Below are positions 5,451-17,126 of a stretch of DNA of 64,000 bases, in pieces. The notes beneath the pieces are model-generated. The model had not been told where the DNA came from, made no database searches, and saw only the letters and a list, made by a program, of their open reading frames with translations. Source of the DNA: Flavobacteriales bacterium (GTDB lineage: Bacteria > Bacteroidota > Bacteroidia > Flavobacteriales_D > Crocinitomicaceae). The stretch lies in assembly GCA_013373595.1 (NCBI GenBank), contig JABXHO010000021.1, positions 1-64,000 of the forward strand, written 5' to 3'. Numbering within the stretch: the first letter of the stretch is position 1; every line of letters begins with the position of its first letter. Position numbers and translations under genes: made by a program.

Positions 5451-6457
5451 TCACACCTTAATGAATTTTTGAACCGTCTGATTTATTTTGATAAAATAGA
5501 TTCCCGTTTTGAGTTTGGAGGTGTCGTAGTTCACTGATAAACTATTGTAAGTGCGTCGATCCACAACCTCACCAAGAGAATTATAGATTTCGATTGATGT
5601 CACGTTTACATTAGATCTAATGTCTAGAACGTCGATAACGGGATTAGGTGAAATCTTGAAACCTTTTTCAACACTTAATTCATTTTCTCCTAAGTGCAGA
5701 TACCAGCAATAACCGTTATCAGGTTCGTAATATGCAACGCTATCTAAATAAGGGTAATTTCCAGTATAGAAGTACTCATAGAAACAAAGAGATTTACCTC
5801 CAGATTCAAAGCAATTTGCGTACGGGAAATATCCTAAATTGCTACCAATTCCCTCAATCCAATGATAGTCATCAGGAATTTCAGGATACACTGAAGATGA
5901 TGTGTCGAAATTAAACCGTTTGAGTGTATCATTATTTATTATCACCGTATCAATCGACTCAACAATAATAGTATCGTACACGGTTATTGCAAAACTATCA
6001 CCTACAGCTAGTCCGAAATCATATAGAAGAATTTCGTCATTGGTATTAAAATGATAGAGCGTGTAATACTGAGGGTCATAGTCCGCACCTGAGAAATATG
6101 CCCAGTCAGCCCAGTCAGCAGTTTGTTCTGCTATGTAGAATACTTTATCGCCTTCTTTTCTGTGATAACCTACTAGATTTCCATTGTACTGGCAATTTTC
6201 GGGCATATAAATGAATGTCTCAGAATCAGCAAATAATCGTGTATAAACGATTCCATTTTTATGTATAGTGTCTCCCTAGCGTGGAGAGTCACATGTGAAT
6301 AGGTTGTTTGGGCATTGGGGTTTGGATCAGCAGGATCAGGATATTGCCAACTTTGGAATGCCCAAGAAGCGGCTGAATCAGGAAAAGGCGTTTGATATTG
6401 ACCTAATGCAAGTACGTAGAATGCAGAGAATAGAGTGATTAGGTAAAGTTTTATCAT
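5451..6457 (-). pseudogene. Frameshifted T9SS cargo gene (type A sorting domain)
   Basis: Two minus-strand reading frames make one gene if a single frameshift is removed. The 5' part starts at the ATG at 6457 with a signal peptide (MIKLYLITLFSAFYVLALG) and reads through YSHVTLHA; the 3' part, in another frame, carries GDTIHKNGIVYTRLFADSE, MPENCQYNG and the rest. Near 6276-6279 an extra AG dinucleotide (or an equivalent change) breaks the frame and creates a TAG just before GDTIHKNG; removing the AG restores LHAGDTIHKNG. The C-terminal 80 residues form a type A T9SS sorting domain (FKISPNPVIDVLDIRSN ... LKTGIYFIKI ... KFIKV). The intact product would be a secreted protein of about 330 residues of unknown role. 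A sequencing error is the main alternative. Confidence 0.8.
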
Positions 6458-6911: not shown

Positions 6912-8951
6912 TTATTCGATGATTAGTCGAACGATTTGTTTTCCTTCTGAGGTTTCGATTTTGATCAAGTAAATTCCAGCGGGTTCTTCTATATGAACGA
7001 GTACTTTTTCTTCGTTTTCATATCGATGCTCTGCCACAATCCGACCACTCACGCTCAGAATTTCCACATCTACCAAAGGTAATTTGCTTCCAAAATCAAT
7101 TATGAATTGTTCATTGGCAGGATTCGGATAAACCTTAGCCGTTGAGTAACTTATCGGATGCAAGTTTACCGTGAGAATAGCCTCACAAGCTGATGTATCA
7201 ACACATCCATTTTGGGTGACTTCCACTGCATAATTTCCATTTTCACTTGGAGAGAAGCTTGAGTTTATTTCTCCTAAAATTGGAGCGAAATCATCATCGC
7301 AATCGAGCCATTGATAGTTCGCAGAAGTTGCGTTTGCTGTGAGTGTCGGGTCCGTCGAGGTAATCGATACATCTACTGTGTTAATGGTCAAGTTCAACGT
7401 AACGACTGAATCACATCCTGCTGCATTGGTCAAGGTGTGTGTGGCGGTATTGTTTGATGATGTGTACGTATTTCCATCGATCCAGTTGTAGGAATCACAT
7501 GCGGTAATGACATCAGTTCCCGTTGAAGAATTATTGATGGTCAAATTCAACGTAACGACTGAATCACATCCTGTTGCATTGGTCAAGGTGTGTGTGGCGG
7601 TATTATTTGATGATGTGTAGGTATTTCCATCAATCCAGTTGTAGGAATCACATGCGGTAATGACATCTGTTCCTGTTGTTGGAGCGCAACTACGATATAT
7701 TCGTGCATGACCGGAATAGCTTCCATTTCCGTCATTACGAATCGCACCGATTGCAAGAGAGTTTCCGTCATTTCCTAAACTAACGGCGTATCCTGAATAG
7801 TTATCAGATGACTCACCATCGATATCCATTCCTTTTTGAAGCCAGGTGCTTCCATTCCAATCGTAAACACGCGTATGTCCAGAATTGCTTCCATTTCCAT
7901 TATTTTTGTACGCCCCAATGGCAATGGTGTTTCCCAAGGAGTCCAAACTAACAGAACACCCAGATAGATCACCTGTAGATTCACCTTCGATATCCAATCC
8001 TAATTGAACCCAAGTGGTTCCGTTCCATTCATATACTCGAACCTGACCGATGTCTATATTACCAGAAGCACCATCGTTTTTGCTTGATCCAACGGCTAAA
8101 ATGTTTCCATTGGCACTCAAACTTACTGATCTGCCTGAGAAATCAAAGGCAGTTTCTCCATCAATATCAAGTCCTTTTTGAATCCAAGTGGTGCCATTCC
8201 ACTCATACACTCTCGTATGACCTGAATCTGTTCCGTTTCCGTCGTTTGAAGGGGCGCCAATTGCAATTGTATAGCCATTTGCGCTCAAATCGATTGCGCT
8301 TCCTGATTCATCGTCACTAGCTTCACCATCGATAGTGGCGCCAAGTTGTACCCAAGCGGTCCCGCTCCATTCGAAAATGTTTACATATCCAGGTGAGGCA
8401 CTACTACCGCCAGTTACAGGTGTGCCAATTGCAACGATGTTTCCATTCGCACTTAAATTCACGCTTGTCCCGAAATTGTCATAGGCATTTTCTCCATTAA
8501 TGCTTAAACCTTTTTGTTGCCAACTGGTTCCGTTCCAAACAAAGACGCGCGCATGTCCTGCATTAATGGCTGCCTGATCATTTCCAAAAGCTCCTACCAC
8601 TAAGGTGTTCCCATCTGCACTCAGGTCTACTGAAATTCCTGCATGATCGCCTGCTGCTTCGCCATCAATATCTGTTCCTCTTTGTACCCATGCTATTCCG
8701 TTCCATGCGTAAACACGAACATGCCCCATGTCACTGTTGGCACCTGCAGTTCCTGAATTTCGTTCGGCTCCAATCGCAATAACGGTTGCGTCGGCATTCA
8801 AACTAATTGAATTGGCTGACTGGTCTCCGCCAGCTTCACCATCGATATCGCTTCCTAGCTGATTCCAAACTTGGGCCCTTACATGGTGTCCAGTTAAAAG
8901 TACCGAGACAAACAAAAGCAGATTTAAAACGGTCGTATATGTGTTTTTCAT
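6912..8951 (-). CDS. T9SS cargo protein with seven propeller-like repeats and a type A sorting domain
   Basis: This 679-residue secreted protein has a signal peptide (cleaved after HVRAQ) and then seven repeats of about 55 residues. Each begins WxQxGxDIDGE, continues SGxxVSLSxxGNxxAIGAxxNDG and ends GHxRVYEWNG, which fits a beta-propeller of the FG-GAP/Kelch type; seven blades would close a ring (inference). Two 51-residue repeats follow (TGTDVITACDSYNWIDGNTYT ... GCDSVVTLNLTIN), a module common in Bacteroidota surface proteins. Next come an Ig/PKD-like segment and the C-terminal type A sorting domain (AKVYPNPANEQFIIDFGS ... GIYLIKIETSEGKQIVRLII). The product should cross the outer membrane by T9SS and stay on the surface or be released. 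The ligand is unknown. Confidence 0.9.
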   Translation of the reverse strand: MKNTYTTVLNLLLFVSVLLTGHHVRAQVWNQLGSDIDGEAGGDQSANSISLNADATVIAIGAERNSGTAGANSDMGHVRVYAWNGIAWVQRGTDIDGEAAGDHAGISVDLSADGNTLVVGAFGNDQAAINAGHARVFVWNGTSWQQKGLSINGENAYDNFGTSVNLSANGNIVAIGTPVTGGSSASPGYVNIFEWSGTAWVQLGATIDGEASDDESGSAIDLSANGYTIAIGAPSNDGNGTDSGHTRVYEWNGTTWIQKGLDIDGETAFDFSGRSVSLSANGNILAVGSSKNDGASGNIDIGQVRVYEWNGTTWVQLGLDIEGESTGDLSGCSVSLDSLGNTIAIGAYKNNGNGSNSGHTRVYDWNGSTWLQKGMDIDGESSDNYSGYAVSLGNDGNSLAIGAIRNDGNGSYSGHARIYRSCAPTTGTDVITACDSYNWIDGNTYTSSNNTATHTLTNATGCDSVVTLNLTINNSSTGTDVITACDSYNWIDGNTYTSSNNTATHTLTNAAGCDSVVTLNLTINTVDVSITSTDPTLTANATSANYQWLDCDDDFAPILGEINSSFSPSENGNYAVEVTQNGCVDTSACEAILTVNLHPISYSTAKVYPNPANEQFIIDFGSKLPLVDVEILSVSGRIVAEHRYENEEKVLVHIEEPAGIYLIKIETSEGKQIVRLIIE
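7386..7678 (-). repeat. Direct tandem repeat inside the T9SS cargo gene (two units, period 153 bp)
   Basis: The units at about 7386-7525 and 7539-7678 are near-identical over about 138 bases with only a handful of differences. They encode the two 51-residue GCDSVVTLNLTIN modules. The near identity at DNA level points to recent duplication, and such units can expand or contract by recombination. Confidence 0.9.
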
Positions 8952-9876: not shown

Positions 9877-12800
9877 TCATCGCATCAGATACATCTTACC
9901 AAACCCTTTTTTGAAATGGGTATCAGCTCCAGATTCGCGGTGTTCAATGGATTCGCCATTCAGTTCTGTTTTGACGCGATACAAGTATACACCATTTGCC
10001 AAAGGATCTCCAAATTCATCCGTTCCGTCCCATGCGTATTCTGTGATGTTACGTCCAATGTGAATTTCCCCCAATTCATCTTCTGTAATTTCTCGTACTA
10101 CACGACCTGTAACGGTCATGATTTGGATAAGAATTTCATCGGGAACTTCAGAACCTGTTAACGTAAACACAAATCGCGTGCTCGTACTAAATGGGTTCGG
10201 GTAATTCATCATGTGCGTGATGGTCGATTCGTGAATCACCTCAAACGATACCTTATAATCGAAATCTCCAGACAAGTTTCCACTTTTATCCGTTCCTTGA
10301 ACGAAGAGCGTGTACGTTCCATCTTGAGTAAGTTCGCTTGGCCAAATGATTTTGAAACGCTTGTGTTGTGCTTCAGCTGGAATCCATTGCATCACAACAT
10401 TTCCACTTCCATCAACAAAGGGAATGCGTCGCTGAATACCACTTGGATCGGTAAGGTAGATTCCAAAATTGGTCGTATCGGAAACATCATCCATGATGAG
10501 GAATTCGTTATCATCCTTCAAGGTAATTAGTACCTCACTGCTTGGATCAACGATGTCTCCATTCAAAATATGTCTTCCGTTAAATGTAACATCCAAAATG
10601 GGATGAATGTCATCAGGATTCACATAAAATGGCAATTGTAAGAGGTTGTTGAAGTGGGCTTGTTCTGGCTGATCCGTGATGTACAAGCTTCCGTTAACGT
10701 AAGGATTCACTTCCATGACCAACAAATTCAAACCGCTCAAATTGGCAGTAGAAACCGTAATTGTATCACGCATTGTTTGTCCAACGAGCAGTGGACCTTG
10801 TCGATCATATGGAATCGGATGTCTCACTTGGTTGGCATCTTCTACCCAATATTCAATGAGCAAAGAATCCATATCTACATTGAAAATATTCTTCACATCA
10901 ACGGCGAAATCAAAGGTTTGTCCGGCCTCCAAAGTATCACTTGAATGCGAGTAGGTATACAAACTACTTCCATCAATGGCTGCTTCAGGAAGCGGTTGAT
11001 AAAGCACGTGCCAACGATCTATTTGGGCAGGAGTGAGGTTGAACGTATCGATGTAATTGGCTTCGAGTCTGAGGTATGGATACTGCGCAGCATCTACCAA
11101 AGCGTTCAGGTTGAGGATCGAGTCGTTGGATGTAAATAAGGTGTCAATGGTGAATTGCAACGATCCCGATATGTTGTAGGCTTTAATCCTCAGATTGGTC
11201 GAGTCATAGGTCGTAATTTCTGAAGGATCTTGCTTCCAATACACATTTCCCCAGTTGGCAGCAGGCCCAATCATGGTAGAATTTTCAAACCCGATATAGT
11301 CTTTTCCTGCAAGGTTGATACTCACGGAAACGTCTCCACCTGGAACCTGAACGAATCGTTCAATAACAGAATTTGGATCTCCTTTTTTGCAGAAGAAGAT
11401 GAATGGAAGGTTTGGACGTCCTGCATGAATACTATCCGATCCAAGTGTTTCGAATAATCCATACATGTCCGTAGAATCGAGTGCCGTCCACTGGTCGTAT
11501 AAGGTTTCAAACGGAGTGTAAATCAAAATATAATGACTGTCGGGAACATGATTCAAGATCATGCTTTGCATGGAATCCAATCGAACGGGATCGTTTTGAT
11601 TGAACGTAAAAATATTCATCGGACGTGAATTCGAAAGGTTGTAGAACCACGAATTCTGATCGTCGTTGTTGTTTCCGAAGTTATGATCTAGGTCTGTTCC
11701 CCAATCGGTAAATCGGGTGTACCAAGGTTCTAACGTGATAGGATCAATGACAGCTACGTGGAACTTTCTATTGAAGTTTCCAACTCCGTAATTATCGTTG
11801 TAATAATCTCCATCCAAAGACCACTGTACTTCCTGATAGTTTTGGAAGGTGATGTTCGATAGCGCTTTGCAGAGCAAAAGTTTTGTACTGCCATCAAATT
11901 CGCGTTCACGGTCGGGTCGATCATACAACACGCCACTAAATCCATTCTTCTTGAACTGAAAGAAATGATCTTGTCCCCAACCTTCTTTTCCTTCGATGTA
12001 TTGGAATGAAAATTCACGCCAATCTGGAACGGGATCGTTCACAGCTACTCGCCAGAAATAAACGGTACTGTCCGTACACACAAGCGGATCAGATAACCCT
12101 GAAGAAGAACTCAACCACTCCGATGGATGTACCTCTTTTACCCCTCCAAATCCTGATACAAGAGCGAAGCGATGTTCAGGACTATCGAATAAGTCTGTGG
12201 TGTCAATCTCGAAACGATAAGTGTTAAAATCTGCAATGGGATTTACGGTGGAAGCGCGTACCGTAACACTGTCGTTTGGAACAACGGCAAAATCGTATGG
12301 AAGCACGGGAAGAATTCCGTCGATATCAATAAATAAGGTCTTCGTGATTTGATTGTTGTTCAGTTCATCGTACACTTCGCCAATAAATGAGGGGATATCT
12401 GCAGTAATGGTGAATGTGTTCAATCCAAGTGCAATATTCGATTGTAAGGGCATTTTGAACTTAAATGTGTCCATGTAATGCAATTCGCTTATCTCAAAGG
12501 TATAAATGGAATCAATGCTTGATTGAGGGAAATTACGTCGAACTTCCAAGTTAAAGGGTTGCGTAACCGAACGCCCAAGATTCTTGAGAGCAATCAGCAT
12601 TTCGATGCTGTCAGTCAATAAATTGATATCATTTGGCTCAAAGGAAACGCGTTCAGGCAACAATTCGATTTCGGGTTTTGTATGCCAGTTTAATCGAAGC
12701 ATTGGATCACCATTCAAGGTCATTTGTTCTGATGTTGCTTCCATCAAAGGTGTTCCGATGGTACTTTCCATTGCGCGAATGGTACTTTGCATTTGGCTTC

Positions 12801-15081
12801 CTAGTGTACCGCCGTAATTGTAGCGAGAAAATTGTCGGTACAATTCTGTTGAATACACAGAAAGGTTATAGGCTTCACCAAGATGAACAGAGGCAATATA
12901 GGCAATGGCTCCGTAGCCCGCTTGTTGGACAAACTCTTCAGATTTTGAGTTCCCTAGTTGAAAGATGTTTCCATTGTAGCAGGAGTTCACAAGCATCACG
13001 GGATATTTCCCTGCGTTGTTCCAGTTGATGGGTTCATCGAGGTTCACCTCAAATCCACTTGAAGTAGCAGAGGCGTGACCGAGATAACTCATCAAGCTTA
13101 CACCATTCGCGATCCGATCGGTTACCGTCTGAAGAACCGTAGGATCTAAGGGATTACTATCTGTTTTATACACTTTCGTAACATCGGCTCCTACCAGAGA
13201 ATCTGTAATGATTTGCTCGAGCCCATTCATGGTACTCTGGAAGTTATTTTGCTCTTGTACGTTCGTTCCTCCTGCAAAATGCAATACGTGTTTTTGCCAA
13301 TCTTTGTTCGGTGTATCGTAAATGTCTGTTGAATCTTGTTCCTGCTCGTATTCAATTACTTTTTCGAGGTAATTTTGCAACTCTGTTTCTGTTCTTGCCG
13401 AAATCCTTCCGGTAGGCATCAGCGGTGTCCAATTATAGGTCCCATCTAATCCTGCGGTAATGGCATTATCACTCGATGGATGACCAAAAGAAGGAACAAG
13501 TGATTGATGGAAACGAGAAGGATCAAAACGAGTTCCAGGTCCATCAGAAGTAAACGAGTTTAGGTTTGCTTCGCGGATTCCTTTTCCCATTAGGAACAAA
13601 CCACTTGGTTTCTGTACCGAAATAGCATCCATGTAGTGTGCAAACCGTCGAATTCCGTTGATGTGTTTCTCAATTCCTCCTCCGAACTGATGATACAATT
13701 CCTCGGCATTCGCTGCTACCACATTATAGCTACCACCCGCAAGTGATTGACGGTAACTTTTGTAGTTCACAACGGCATTCTCAAGTTTTTTATGATACAC
13801 CATCAACAAGGCGCTGTCTGTCGCTCCTGGCAAGTTGGCATAATCGGTAAACGTTCCATTTCCATTTACTGCCTCAAGCGTAACGGTTGGAATTTGCGAT
13901 TGATTGGAGTACACAACATTTTGCTCAACTCCAGAACTCGAATTTGGAATCAACATGGAATGCGTTGATGTACCGTTGGGTAAAAATGGGATGAAGCGAG
14001 GCGTTTCACCATGTACAAAAACAACAGGGTCTGAGTACGCCGCAGCAATAATATCTAATCGGGTTTTCGACTCTGTTGCACTGTTCCTAACACTAAACTG
14101 AAGTTTAGGGGAACCACCAAAGTGAGGTTGGCGCGCATATTTCAGTTGATAAAAGGTAAATGATTGATAATCGGTATCAACGTTTAAGTCATCAATAATG
14201 TCAAAATAAAAATTGGTTCCATATGCACCTAATTCACTCGCGGGAATAGGCGTTTCCACTTTGATTTGCTCGTAACCGGCAAACACGGTGTCAACGATCG
14301 TAGTGGCAGAATTCCCCAGTCGTAAACGCAAATGGTGATTGTATGTACTTCCCAAAGGAGGAGGAGCGTTTGATGCAGAAACACAGAGCGCTAAGAATTC
14401 GCCATTTGGAGCGTCCGACCCTGCGTATCGAAATGGGTTGGATAGGGAGGGAGTAATCGTTGTACCTCCTGGAACACCGTTGTATTTTCCTGCTCCCCAA
14501 CCTTCTCCAGGAACGAAGAAAGAACTACTCAAGTCGGAAATCTTTTGACCTTCATAGTATTCGTTCGTGAAATTTGACCTCACAAGACTCATGAAGTGCG
14601 TGGCTGGCGTATAGGATGCAAAGTCGACGTCTGTTTCAACAGTATATCGGAGATTGTTCGTTGAATTGTTCCATGTTAAGAAATAATGAATGGTGTCATT
14701 GTAAAGGCTCATACCTGGAGATCCAACAGTATTCGGGTCGAGGTAGAGCGTAGAGTCTAGCCAACCATCGTTGCGCTGACCATAAAACAAGATGTAATCT
14801 CCTCCATCAATACTAGAGTCACCTCCATCAACAACGTGAAGCGGAATTTCTTTTTCTCTTCCGAAGAGTTGGAAGTTTTCGGAGAGAATGGAAGCAACGG
14901 GCACACCTGCATTGGCTAATGCGGCAGAATCAATCCGATAGATACCGTCCTCAACAATTTTGATGGAGTAATATGACTGCGAATAATCGATCCATTCATT
15001 TCCGAAGGTTTGAGCACGGGCAATGAAGCCTGTAGTGGCACAAACGAGTAGGAGTAGTATGATTGATCGAAGAAAATTCAT
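9877..15081 (-). CDS. porU2: PorU2-like type IX secretion sortase (gingipain-type C25 domain)
   Basis: This very large (1,734-residue) secreted protein carries a gingipain-like C25 peptidase domain and resembles the proteins annotated in this phylum as PorU2, a relative of the T9SS sortase PorU. A signal peptide (cleaved after ARAQ) precedes an N-terminal beta-rich region (GNEWIDYSQSYYSIKI, GIYRID). The likely catalytic pair is His669 in SYLGHASATSSG and Cys701 in MLVNSCYNGNIF. A long series of Ig-like beta domains follows, ending with a FlgD-like C-terminal segment (NYPNPFSTSTRFVFTL ... YAWDGTDEFGDPLANGVYLYRV) and the tail HFKKGFGKMYLMR. True PorU is about 1,100-1,300 residues, so this one is longer. 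It starts 5 bases after the PorV2-like gene and is surely co-transcribed with it. Processing of a T9SS cargo subset is an inference. Confidence 0.85.
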   Translation of the reverse strand: MNFLRSIILLLLVCATTGFIARAQTFGNEWIDYSQSYYSIKIVEDGIYRIDSAALANAGVPVASILSENFQLFGREKEIPLHVVDGGDSSIDGGDYILFYGQRNDGWLDSTLYLDPNTVGSPGMSLYNDTIHYFLTWNNSTNNLRYTVETDVDFASYTPATHFMSLVRSNFTNEYYEGQKISDLSSSFFVPGEGWGAGKYNGVPGGTTITPSLSNPFRYAGSDAPNGEFLALCVSASNAPPPLGSTYNHHLRLRLGNSATTIVDTVFAGYEQIKVETPIPASELGAYGTNFYFDIIDDLNVDTDYQSFTFYQLKYARQPHFGGSPKLQFSVRNSATESKTRLDIIAAAYSDPVVFVHGETPRFIPFLPNGTSTHSMLIPNSSSGVEQNVVYSNQSQIPTVTLEAVNGNGTFTDYANLPGATDSALLMVYHKKLENAVVNYKSYRQSLAGGSYNVVAANAEELYHQFGGGIEKHINGIRRFAHYMDAISVQKPSGLFLMGKGIREANLNSFTSDGPGTRFDPSRFHQSLVPSFGHPSSDNAITAGLDGTYNWTPLMPTGRISARTETELQNYLEKVIEYEQEQDSTDIYDTPNKDWQKHVLHFAGGTNVQEQNNFQSTMNGLEQIITDSLVGADVTKVYKTDSNPLDPTVLQTVTDRIANGVSLMSYLGHASATSSGFEVNLDEPINWNNAGKYPVMLVNSCYNGNIFQLGNSKSEEFVQQAGYGAIAYIASVHLGEAYNLSVYSTELYRQFSRYNYGGTLGSQMQSTIRAMESTIGTPLMEATSEQMTLNGDPMLRLNWHTKPEIELLPERVSFEPNDINLLTDSIEMLIALKNLGRSVTQPFNLEVRRNFPQSSIDSIYTFEISELHYMDTFKFKMPLQSNIALGLNTFTITADIPSFIGEVYDELNNNQITKTLFIDIDGILPVLPYDFAVVPNDSVTVRASTVNPIADFNTYRFEIDTTDLFDSPEHRFALVSGFGGVKEVHPSEWLSSSSGLSDPLVCTDSTVYFWRVAVNDPVPDWREFSFQYIEGKEGWGQDHFFQFKKNGFSGVLYDRPDREREFDGSTKLLLCKALSNITFQNYQEVQWSLDGDYYNDNYGVGNFNRKFHVAVIDPITLEPWYTRFTDWGTDLDHNFGNNNDDQNSWFYNLSNSRPMNIFTFNQNDPVRLDSMQSMILNHVPDSHYILIYTPFETLYDQWTALDSTDMYGLFETLGSDSIHAGRPNLPFIFFCKKGDPNSVIERFVQVPGGDVSVSINLAGKDYIGFENSTMIGPAANWGNVYWKQDPSEITTYDSTNLRIKAYNISGSLQFTIDTLFTSNDSILNLNALVDAAQYPYLRLEANYIDTFNLTPAQIDRWHVLYQPLPEAAIDGSSLYTYSHSSDTLEAGQTFDFAVDVKNIFNVDMDSLLIEYWVEDANQVRHPIPYDRQGPLLVGQTMRDTITVSTANLSGLNLLVMEVNPYVNGSLYITDQPEQAHFNNLLQLPFYVNPDDIHPILDVTFNGRHILNGDIVDPSSEVLITLKDDNEFLIMDDVSDTTNFGIYLTDPSGIQRRIPFVDGSGNVVMQWIPAEAQHKRFKIIWPSELTQDGTYTLFVQGTDKSGNLSGDFDYKVSFEVIHESTITHMMNYPNPFSTSTRFVFTLTGSEVPDEILIQIMTVTGRVVREITEDELGEIHIGRNITEYAWDGTDEFGDPLANGVYLYRVKTELNGESIEHRESGADTHFKKGFGKMYLMR

Positions 15082-15086
15082 GTAGT

Positions 15087-16214
15087 TTATTCGGTTCCGC
15101 TATTTTGGGGTTGATTTAATTTCAGTCGTAGGGAAACAATATGTGAGTACAGAGCAGCAGAGGCGTCTCCAATATCTGTAAACGCGTAATCTAGGTAGAC
15201 ATTCTTGAAGTTCAAACCTATTCCAATGTTTGGTTGCACATTCAATTTTTGAACATCATCAAAATCTTTAACATATTGGACATTCGACAACCCTGCACGA
15301 ACGCTCACATAATTTTTAAATCCTACGCTCACACCTAAATGTGGGTCAATTGAAACAAGTCCTGTTTTGATTAAGGTATTTCTTCTACCATCTGTTGTCA
15401 CGTCAACATCCAATTCAGATGATGTCCATAATCCCTTTTTACCGAGGTCAAATTTCTTGTAACCTGCCAAGATGAGGCGAGGAAGTGTTAATTCAAGTCC
15501 ATTCTCAGGAATTTCGTTTCCTGTATTTAAGAATACTTCACGTGTTTCTTGATCAAGGGAGAAAACCCACGCATTGAAAGTGGATGTTACATCTCGTGCC
15601 ATCAACCCGAATTTCCAGCCGCTCTTTGTATGGTATTGTGCTCCAGCATCCAATCCGAATCCCCATGATTTGGCAAAGTCTCCAACTTTTCGGTGAATCA
15701 CTTTAAATGTACCTCCAACGCTCAAACCTTCAACGTCTAGTTTTCGGGCATATGAGAAAAGAAAACCGTAATCTGCTGCTGTAAATCGCGTAATTCTGTC
15801 GTAGTCAATTACACCGTTGTTATCAATAAGTTGCGTTGTATTCGGGATATCATCTACGCCAAAACGAATCGCTGTAAAACCAATCGCGCTTTTATCGTCA
15901 ATTGAATGCGCCAAACCTACGTAATCGTATTTTGCAATGCCCGCGAAGTACTCGGAGTGCATCAATCCAACTTCCATCCATTTGTTAACGTTTGTCAAAC
16001 CAGCTGGATTCCAATAACCGGAACTCACGCCATCTGTTTGGGCAACGAAAGCGTTTCCTACACCAAGAGCATCAGCGCCTACACCGATCGCCAAAAATTC
16101 ATTGGAATATTTCGGTGCAATTGTTTCAGTCAGAGATGGATCGCTTTGAGCAGAAGCTTGAAAGCCTGATAAAATCGAGGAAGCACACAGTAAAAAGGAC
16201 CAAAAATTTTTCAT
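15087..16214 (-). CDS. porV2: PorV2-like outer-membrane beta-barrel protein of type IX secretion
   Basis: A 375-residue FadL-like beta-barrel of the PorV/PorQ family. In T9SS, PorV binds the C-terminal sorting domain of cargo and hands it to the sortase PorU; a PorV2 partnered with PorU2 is the analogous assignment here. The signal peptide (cleaved after ASAQ) is followed by the family hallmark FLAIGVGADALGVGNAFVAQTDGVSSGYWNPAG, shown here in parts: ADALGVGNAFVA and GYWNPAGL. Alternating strands run to the end (IGIGLNFKNVYLDYAFTD, HIVSLRLKLN). It is first in a two-gene unit with the PorU2-like gene. A PorQ-type or general transport barrel is the main alternative, but the neighbour makes PorV2 the better call. 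Confidence 0.82.
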   Translation of the reverse strand: MKNFWSFLLCASSILSGFQASAQSDPSLTETIAPKYSNEFLAIGVGADALGVGNAFVAQTDGVSSGYWNPAGLTNVNKWMEVGLMHSEYFAGIAKYDYVGLAHSIDDKSAIGFTAIRFGVDDIPNTTQLIDNNGVIDYDRITRFTAADYGFLFSYARKLDVEGLSVGGTFKVIHRKVGDFAKSWGFGLDAGAQYHTKSGWKFGLMARDVTSTFNAWVFSLDQETREVFLNTGNEIPENGLELTLPRLILAGYKKFDLGKKGLWTSSELDVDVTTDGRRNTLIKTGLVSIDPHLGVSVGFKNYVSVRAGLSNVQYVKDFDDVQKLNVQPNIGIGLNFKNVYLDYAFTDIGDASAALYSHIVSLRLKLNQPQNSGTE

Positions 16215-16346
16215 AAATAGCTTTTGTTTACACCCTAAACTGTGATTTCGTTAAAAAATTGTGTTCTTTGCATGTATAATTATAGACGCAAAAGTACTCG
16301 TTTTGGTTGACACCATTTCGTGAATATTAATTTTTTGGAGGTACGA

Positions 16347-17126
16347 ATGTTTAATATACCCAATCTATTTACCGCTTTTAATATGCTCTCGGGTTGTGCG
16401 GCCATAATTTTGACCTTCGCGGGTCGAATTGATTTGGCACCCTTTGCCATATTTGCCGGAGCCTTTTTCGATTTTCTAGACGGATTTCTTGCTCGAAAAC
16501 TGAAGGTGTCTGGTGAGATGGGGAAACAGTTGGATTCACTAGCCGATATGGTGACCTTCGGTGTTGCGCCAGGGTTGATAATGCTGGTCATGTTGATTCA
16601 AGTAAATATTCACTTTTCATCGGGGAGACCTATTGAAGCGTGGTTAGAGTCTTTATTGAATATGGAATGGAAAGCATTTTATCCACTCATCGCTTTACTG
16701 ATTCCTTTCTTCTCTATTTTTCGATTGGCAAAGTTCAATCTGGATACCCGACAAACAGAATCGTTTATTGGTTTACCAACACCAGCCAACACCTTGTTTT
16801 TTATGTCCTTTCCGCTCGTGGCTGTTTACGGATCGAACAACTCTGATGTTATGAGTAGCATCAACGATTTCATGTTTCATCCAATAACGATGGGAGTTTT
16901 CATTTTGACGATGAGTTTACTCCTCGTTTCAGAAATTCCATTGTTCTCACTAAAGTTTAAAACCTTTGGAATAAAAGGAAACGAAACACGCTACATCTTT
17001 TTGTTAATAAGTTTGACATTTATTATCATTTTCAAGGTGTGGGCTTTGGCATTAATCGTATTTTTGTACCTCGTATTATCGATAATTGAAAACTTCGTTT
17101 TAAAGACAAAAAAAGATGAAATTTAG
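16347..17126 (+). CDS. pssA: CDP-diacylglycerol--serine O-phosphatidyltransferase
   Basis: This inner-membrane enzyme makes phosphatidylserine from CDP-diacylglycerol and L-serine, the first step to phosphatidylethanolamine. The CDP-alcohol phosphotransferase motif is complete: DG-x2-AR-x8-G-x3-D-x3-D, seen as DGFLARKL followed by GKQLDSLAD. About eight transmembrane segments are predicted over 259 residues. I chose the ATG at 16347 because GGAGG lies six bases upstream, a rare strong ribosome-binding site here, and the product starts MFNIPNLFTAFNML as in relatives; an in-frame GTG at 16320 is less likely. The stop overlaps the purS start by 11 bases, so the two are translationally linked despite unrelated pathways. 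Confidence 0.93.
   Translation: MFNIPNLFTAFNMLSGCAAIILTFAGRIDLAPFAIFAGAFFDFLDGFLARKLKVSGEMGKQLDSLADMVTFGVAPGLIMLVMLIQVNIHFSSGRPIEAWLESLLNMEWKAFYPLIALLIPFFSIFRLAKFNLDTRQTESFIGLPTPANTLFFMSFPLVAVYGSNNSDVMSSINDFMFHPITMGVFILTMSLLLVSEIPLFSLKFKTFGIKGNETRYIFLLISLTFIIIFKVWALALIVFLYLVLSIIENFVLKTKKDEI

Follow-up and report, generated by a model that had tools for sequence, protein, structure and literature searches.

A porV2-porU2 gene pair with a predicted FAM3/ILEI-fold domain as a candidate second attachment unit of the type IX secretion system in a Flavobacteriales bacterium

Is the long C25-family protein encoded beside a PorV-type barrel in a Flavobacteriales bacterium (Crocinitomicaceae) the ordinary sortase of the type IX secretion system (T9SS), or does it belong to a second processing unit, and what might its additional length serve? 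The gene pair lies on contig JABXHO010000021.1 of assembly GCA_013373595.1, of which positions 1 to 64,000 of the forward strand (64,000 nucleotides) were analysed and are called the window here. The first-pass annotation described a PorU2/PorV2-like pair, a C25 protein of 1,734 residues with a PorV-type barrel directly upstream, and read it as a second T9SS processing unit distinct from PorU/PorV. Both frames were found as described, and both proteins score well above the curated cut-offs of NCBIfam, where the PorU2 and PorV2 families are already named as "putative". Most of what is understood about the anchoring of T9SS cargo comes from Porphyromonas gingivalis. We lean towards the view that porV2-porU2 forms a second T9SS attachment unit, a parallel signal peptidase/sortase with PorV2 as its barrel partner and an extra FAM3/ILEI domain that would recognise the acceptor or the cargo. 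The two genes and the catalytic part of PorU2 are located as follows.

9877..15081, minus strand: porU2, C25-family sortase-like protein of 1734 amino acids (aa) (NF052324 PorU2, 710.7 bits; Peptidase_C25, E 1.9e-51)
15087..16214, minus strand: porV2, PorV/PorQ-family outer-membrane barrel of 375 aa, partner gene (NF052325 PorV2, 485.5 bits)
15013..15081, minus strand: signal-peptide-like start of PorU2, residues 1-23 (read by eye)
12691..13806, minus strand: Peptidase_C25 catalytic domain, residues 426-797 (Pfam)
13075..13077, minus strand: His669, catalytic histidine by family (alignment conservation)
12979..12981, minus strand: Cys701, catalytic cysteine by family (alignment conservation)

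The porV2 gene is situated directly upstream of porU2 on the same strand, with 5 nucleotides (nt) between them, and the N-termini of both proteins are signal-peptide-like as judged by eye. On the PorU2 model (cut-off 450 bits), residues 9-909 align with model positions 5-879; on the canonical PorU model NF033707 the same protein reaches 178 bits, under the cut-off of 420. PorV2 passes the cut-off of its own family (325 bits) and stays below those of PorV NF033710 (31.2 bits, cut-off 250) and PorQ NF033711 (54.6 bits, cut-off 220). Its Pfam PorV match is likewise sub-threshold (16.9 bits, cut-off 27). His669 and Cys701, the residues singled out by the first-pass annotation, occur without exception in 18 aligned sequences, and a wider alignment has them in 68 of its 71 rows, with gaps at these positions in the remaining three. 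The window pair is a well-formed member of PorU2/PorV2, ordinary among its relatives.

The genome was searched for canonical porU and porV, and both were found. The one other C25 match is a canonical PorU on contig C129 (1233.9 bits on NF033707), where the gene order is porU-porV-ispF and the adjoining PorV scores 405.3 bits. PorQ is encoded on contig C75 (294.7 bits) and PorZ on contig C104 (523.2 bits). Because the canonical PorU, PorV, PorQ and PorZ stand elsewhere in the genome, porV2-porU2 is a second unit, and the presence of PorU on C129 rules out that the window protein is simply the canonical PorU. The pair has in common with the canonical PorU-PorV-PorQ-PorZ attachment complex a C25 domain, a PorV-family partner and a FlgD-like C-terminal end. 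PorU2 differs from the canonical PorU of its own genome in being 402 residues longer (1734 vs 1332) and in its added Ig-like and FAM3/ILEI domains. A fifth, weak PorV-family match (63.5 bits, under the cut-off of 90) was seen on contig C145 of this genome, at 13883-14557.

The distribution of these proteins was determined in a phylum sample of 148 genomes with a requested completeness of at least 95%, using E <= 1e-100 for PorU2 and PorU and E <= 1e-50 for PorZ. PorU2, a separate C25 family, was found in 37 genomes, PorU in 103 and PorZ in 99. The 37 PorU2 genomes include 31 with PorZ and none from family f17, of which 12 genomes were listed without a match; in three (G133, G168 and G203) PorU and PorU2 are present and PorZ is absent. 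In three others (G066, G148 and G183) PorU2 is the sole C25 protein, with 1, 2 and 2 matches, respectively, and both PorU and PorZ are absent. These genomes retain canonical PorV (431.5, 403.9 and 357.1 bits) and a PorV2-like barrel, further PorV-family matches reaching at most 27.2 bits, and SprA was found in all three. Matches to the type A C-terminal domain (CTD) number 8, 52 and 96, which are counts of matches and not of proteins and include a few of PorU2's own ends. With no C25 protein other than PorU2, yet with PorV, SprA and type A CTDs, these genomes suggest by their gene content that PorU2 is probably able to act as the sortase for ordinary type A cargo. In G066 and G183 porV directly adjoins ispF, as in the genome studied here, but without porU, which fits a loss of porU; in G148 ispF lies some 4 kb from porV.

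The same genomes bear on another explanation, in which PorU2/PorV2 would treat only a private subset of sorting-domain proteins and PorU/PorV the rest. The joint presence of PorU and PorU2 in 34 of the 37 PorU2 genomes agrees with such a division of labour, and Flavobacterium johnsoniae is known to have barrel shuttles devoted to type B sorting domains (PMC12618676). We consider it unlikely, however, as the 8, 52 and 96 type A matches of the PorU2-only genomes weigh against a narrow private cargo and PorU2 seems able to serve the general cargo set there. In addition, inspection by eye revealed no cargo-like family among the 22 most frequent neighbour families listed, which were not scanned for sorting domains. 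As a separate observation, the C-terminus of one PorU2 copy of G183 (locus L165, 4931-9844) is a Por_Secre_tail sorting domain of the ordinary kind, scoring 49.8 bits with Pfam and 59.7 bits on TIGR04183, the best in G183.

The length of PorU2 had been called unusual and far beyond that of a typical sortase. It does exceed that of canonical PorU, whose open frames have 1077-1477 aa in 103 genomes, but 1734 aa is typical of the PorU2 family, and exceptional length was rejected. The median PorU2 frame has 1706 aa and the longest 1734, as calculated from 59 frames of more than 1500 aa among the 70 found in 80 named loci; 10 of the 80 loci gave no PorU2 frame by motif, and the other 11 frames, none longer than 1500 aa, were excluded from the median. 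When the genome itself and 59 relatives were searched, 45 of the 60 showed a PorU2 match over the cut-off, and the frames had about 1650-1770 aa except for three shorter ones (1345, 729 and 1452 aa). The porV2-porU2 order was seen in 53 of the 70 named loci (54 open reading frames of the right size directly upstream, 53 matching PorV2), and in many of the others PorU2 begins near the edge of the locus. The named PorU2 loci show 32-87% identity in the best segment, and the nearest named record is Fluviicola sp. isolate NORP8, with 84% identity in the best segment. Two cultured relatives, Crocinitomix algicola and Taishania pollutisoli, are among those that have the locus. Two PorU2 copies near each other were noticed in single genomes, namely G007 (locus L061, same genus), G148 (L164) and G112 (contig C10).

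The additional residues follow the catalytic domain: 937 residues lie beyond the C25 domain in PorU2 vs 364 in the canonical PorU of the same genome. Models of this region were predicted with AlphaFold (AF2) from alignments of related loci, for residues 1040-1325 (predicted local distance difference test score (pLDDT) 88.3) and 800-1734 (pLDDT 85.7, predicted template-modelling score 0.63). Alignment A2 held 60 of 69 listed pieces and alignment A3 54 of 67, the remainder being omitted by choice. Three parts of the region were assigned.

11299..11889, minus strand: predicted FAM3/ILEI-fold (POMGnT1-stem-like) domain, residues ~1065-1261 (AF2 model, VIA, Pfam on homologues, hhalign)
10612..11004, minus strand: CARDB-type Ig-like domain, residues ~1360-1490 (VIA Z 12.6 to 3idu, 110/110 aligned)
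9880..10617, minus strand: C-terminal part resembling the end of P. gingivalis PorU, including the FlgD-like end, residues 1489-1734 (VIA to 6za2 935-1157; sub-cut-off FlgD_ig)

Ig-like domains, of which the first-pass annotation expected many, are seen in the model of residues 800-1734, but one added domain is not Ig-like and is predicted to have the FAM3/ILEI fold instead. A Foldseek search with this 935-residue model returned chiefly complement and macroglobulin chains at a TM score of ~0.15, which reads as generic Ig-like repeats. The CARDB-like domain was recognised by VIA on the predicted model. Residues 1489-1734 were matched by VIA to residues 935-1157 of P. gingivalis PorU (6za2), with 196 aligned residues, 20% identity and Z 9.5, but with a root-mean-square deviation (rmsd) of 12.6. 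The expected FlgD-like end was recovered as a Pfam FlgD_ig match at residues 1635-1706 (25.1 bits), though under the cut-off of 27, and it is not special to the extra length, being common to canonical PorU. For the suggestion that the extra length holds or displays cargo no support was seen, and the C-terminal end resembles that of PorU.

That much of the chain is Ig-like scaffold, and that the open-licence literature yielded no assay of PorU2, would suit a structural or regulatory protein, a catalytically idle C25 relative acting as scaffold or latch. This is very improbable: in 68 of 71 rows, with 3 gapped, both the His and the Cys are present, across loci of 32-87% best-segment identity, and three genomes that encode SprA and type A CTD proteins have no C25 protein other than PorU2.

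The part of PorU2 that departs from the Ig-like pattern is predicted to adopt the FAM3/ILEI fold. The best solved match to residues ~1065-1261 of the predicted model is the stem domain of POMGnT1 (VIA Z 16.6, rmsd 2.3, 145/152 aligned), and the same fold was found again inside the 935-residue model with Z 16.8. The POMGnT1 entries scored Z 16.3-16.6, FAM3A/B/C 13.4-13.9, TMEM2 13.6 and the dimer form of FAM3C 10.1, and the next unrelated row scored 3.9. Foldseek alone gave POMGnT1 at E 1.9e-4. At the level of sequence, Pfam ILEI (PF15711) matched 34 of 61 homologous pieces at E <= 1, with a best E of 1.9e-9, and 1 of 18 full-length homologues at E <= 0.1. Profile comparison with POMGnT1/FAM3 in hhalign gave 92.9% probability and E 3.6e-7 over 71 columns. 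Five divergent PorU2 were also scanned, of which two match ILEI (E 6.4e-5 and 0.0047) and a third matches only a custom domain profile. The canonical PorU of this genome showed no ILEI-type match in the scan. A sequence-profile search of the PDB returned FAM3C/FAM3B only at E 0.49-1; it was not taken as proof of the fold because an unrelated ribonuclease ranked above them, at 0.097. As the NF052324 model has 879 positions and reaches residue 909 of the window protein, the ILEI-fold domain lies outside it. Among the matches listed for ILEI or FAM3 together with bacteria in the open-licence literature, nothing concerned such a domain. This predicted domain, the PorU2-only genomes and a linkage to pssA described below are what the present analysis adds to the named families.

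What we infer for the pair, namely its activity and location, the partnership of PorU2 with PorV2, and the ligand, anchor and cargo, would run as follows. PorU2, whose His669-Cys701 pair is intact, would be exported and act as a cysteine transpeptidase/signal peptidase of the C25 type, and PorV2 would be its outer-membrane barrel partner. The two would receive type A sorting-domain cargo once it is out of the SprA translocon, and remove the sorting domain, after which the cargo would be set free or attached to an anchor on the surface. The FAM3/ILEI-fold domain may recognise the acceptor, which would be a glycan or glycolipid, or else the cargo, and might thereby do on board of PorU2 what the separate PorZ does for PorU. 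In P. gingivalis, PorZ delivers anionic lipopolysaccharide (A-LPS) to PorU (PMC8545088). The FAM3-like domain is a concrete lead to what PorU2 recognises, its fold being like the sugar-binding domains of human proteins. Together with the genomes in which PorU2 stands alone, an extra domain of known fold makes the purpose of the second sortase directly testable with regard to general type A cargo, a FAM3-like ligand and the anchor.

Several observations weigh against this proposal. The first concerns the putative ligand. The POMGnT1 stem binds beta-linked N-acetylglucosamine (GlcNAc) via Arg129, Asp179 and Arg207, and FAM3 proteins retain those three residues and bind GlcNAc too (PMC9802357). 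With the POMGnT1 residue numbers set onto the sequence by inference, the corresponding PorU2 columns hold Pro in 35 of 61 sequences (Arg in 2/61), are variable (commonest Thr, 14/61) and hold Asn in 23/61, respectively. The three contact residues are not conserved in PorU2 and lend no residue-level support to glycan binding; the fold, as predicted, is therefore common to both proteins and the GlcNAc site is not. PorU2 would thus carry the fold of the FAM3/ILEI and POMGnT1 stem lectin domains embedded in a bacterial sortase, with differing contact residues. Pfam ILEI gave no match in the window's own PorU2 nor in 27 of the 61 homologous pieces, and the divergent PorU2 of loci L166 and L171 match neither ILEI nor the custom domain profile. 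The genome studied here holds PorZ and PorQ as well, so PorU2 is not replacing them there, and PorZ accompanies PorU2 in 31 of 37 genomes. Pairing is not universal, as the PorU2 of G203 and G106 have no adjoining PorV2. The absence of PorU from G066, G148 and G183 is defined by the NCBIfam model at E <= 1e-100 and a Pfam C25 scan. Finally, no experiment on any PorU2 was found in the open-licence literature. In PMC10994853, "PorV2" seems to stand for PorV with a reference number attached and not for the family.

A different anchor is brought into consideration by the gene divergent from porV2.

16320..17126, plus strand: pssA, CDP-diacylglycerol-serine O-phosphatidyltransferase-like gene, divergent from porV2 (TIGR00473, 97.8 bits, cut-off 107)

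No other pssA match was found in the genome at E <= 1e-12. The neighbourhood of porU2 was compared in 53 of the 80 loci (frame >1400 aa, locus >12 kb) and the window. The most common neighbour was pssA, with 41 of the 54 loci, ahead of families present in 32 (PorV2 by BLAST), 19, 16 and 15 loci. Of the 30 loci whose PorU2 is less than 45% identical to that of the window, 18 retain pssA and 1 retains any further window neighbour, PorV2 aside. Of the 23 loci with an identity of 45% or higher, 22 retain pssA, but 17 retain other window neighbours as well, so that simple synteny accounts for some of the linkage. A general link between pssA and PorU2 over the phylum was not found: of the 37 phylum-sample genomes with PorU2, only 2 have pssA at a distance of 10 kb or less from it. 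Five genomes that belong to two other families (G133, G168, G203, G106 and G129) have pssA directly upstream of canonical porU and co-directional with it, and three of the five have no PorZ; this count of 5 in 103 genomes, within 10 kb, was read from tables by eye and not computed. The pssA frame of G168 (locus L179) is included in the table of pssA matches and missing from the gene map.

These data allow the proposal of a lipid-anchoring sortase, in which PorU2 would join the new C-terminus of the cargo to the amino group of a phospholipid, phosphatidylserine or phosphatidylethanolamine, whose synthesis runs through the adjoining PssA, as archaeosortase ArtA depends on PssA and PssD in haloarchaea. 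The divergent pssA of the 41 loci, its persistence at low PorU2 identity where other neighbours are rarely kept, and its place directly upstream of canonical porU in five genomes, with a 4-nt overlap in one, would accord with it. The archaeosortase system is alike in that a gene for a protein-sorting enzyme adjoins pssA: the position of artA next to pssA was what led to HvPssA and HvPssD, both of which an ArtA substrate requires for its lipid modification (PMC7157517). Moreover, the linker sugar of P. gingivalis bears an N-seryl group (PMC13086638). The linkage of PorU2 to pssA differs from the ArtA system in being confined to part of the phylum, and lipidation by PorU2 is only a proposal. ArtA also belongs to an enzyme family and a membrane unrelated to those of PorU2.

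We regard lipid anchoring as a long shot, a bold and unproven reading. Besides the low phylum-wide counts near PorU2 and canonical porU and the synteny among close relatives, pssA is here a single, presumably housekeeping copy. The ispF gene, a housekeeping gene with no known link, likewise stays by porV in this genome, G066 and G183. The 53 loci are best-scoring related matches and not independent of one another. The sugar-binding type of fold points to a glycan over a phospholipid. No paper joining PorU with phosphatidylserine synthase was found in the open-licence literature, and no T9SS paper among the matches listed mentions phosphatidylethanolamine. Slimmer still are the chances of its fullest form, in which PorU2/PorV2 would be a second T9SS anchoring route whose sortase, carrying its own FAM3-type recognition domain, attaches cargo to a phospholipid head group (phosphatidylserine or phosphatidylethanolamine) provided via the co-conserved PssA. 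Such a bacterial outer-membrane counterpart of archaeosortase-PssA would need neither A-LPS nor PorZ.

Further gene arrangements were noted. In the five genomes with pssA beside canonical porU (loci L178-L182, in the order G133, G168, G203, G106, G129) the genes are ordered pssA-porU-porV, followed on the same strand by one gene of 419-435 aa with similar first residues in all five; the overlap of pssA and porU by 4 nt is that of L178. Downstream of porU2 in the window, on the minus strand, 6912-8951 and 5451-6206 encode two type A sorting-domain proteins, one with FG-GAP repeats. At and beyond the end of the window (locus L172, contig C174, 62000-73000) three genes stand in a row. One frame is TonB-receptor-like by eye, another encodes a protein of 1408 aa whose C-terminal end is PorZ/FlgD-like, and with a PorV-family protein of 355 aa they include a further PorV-paralogue pair.

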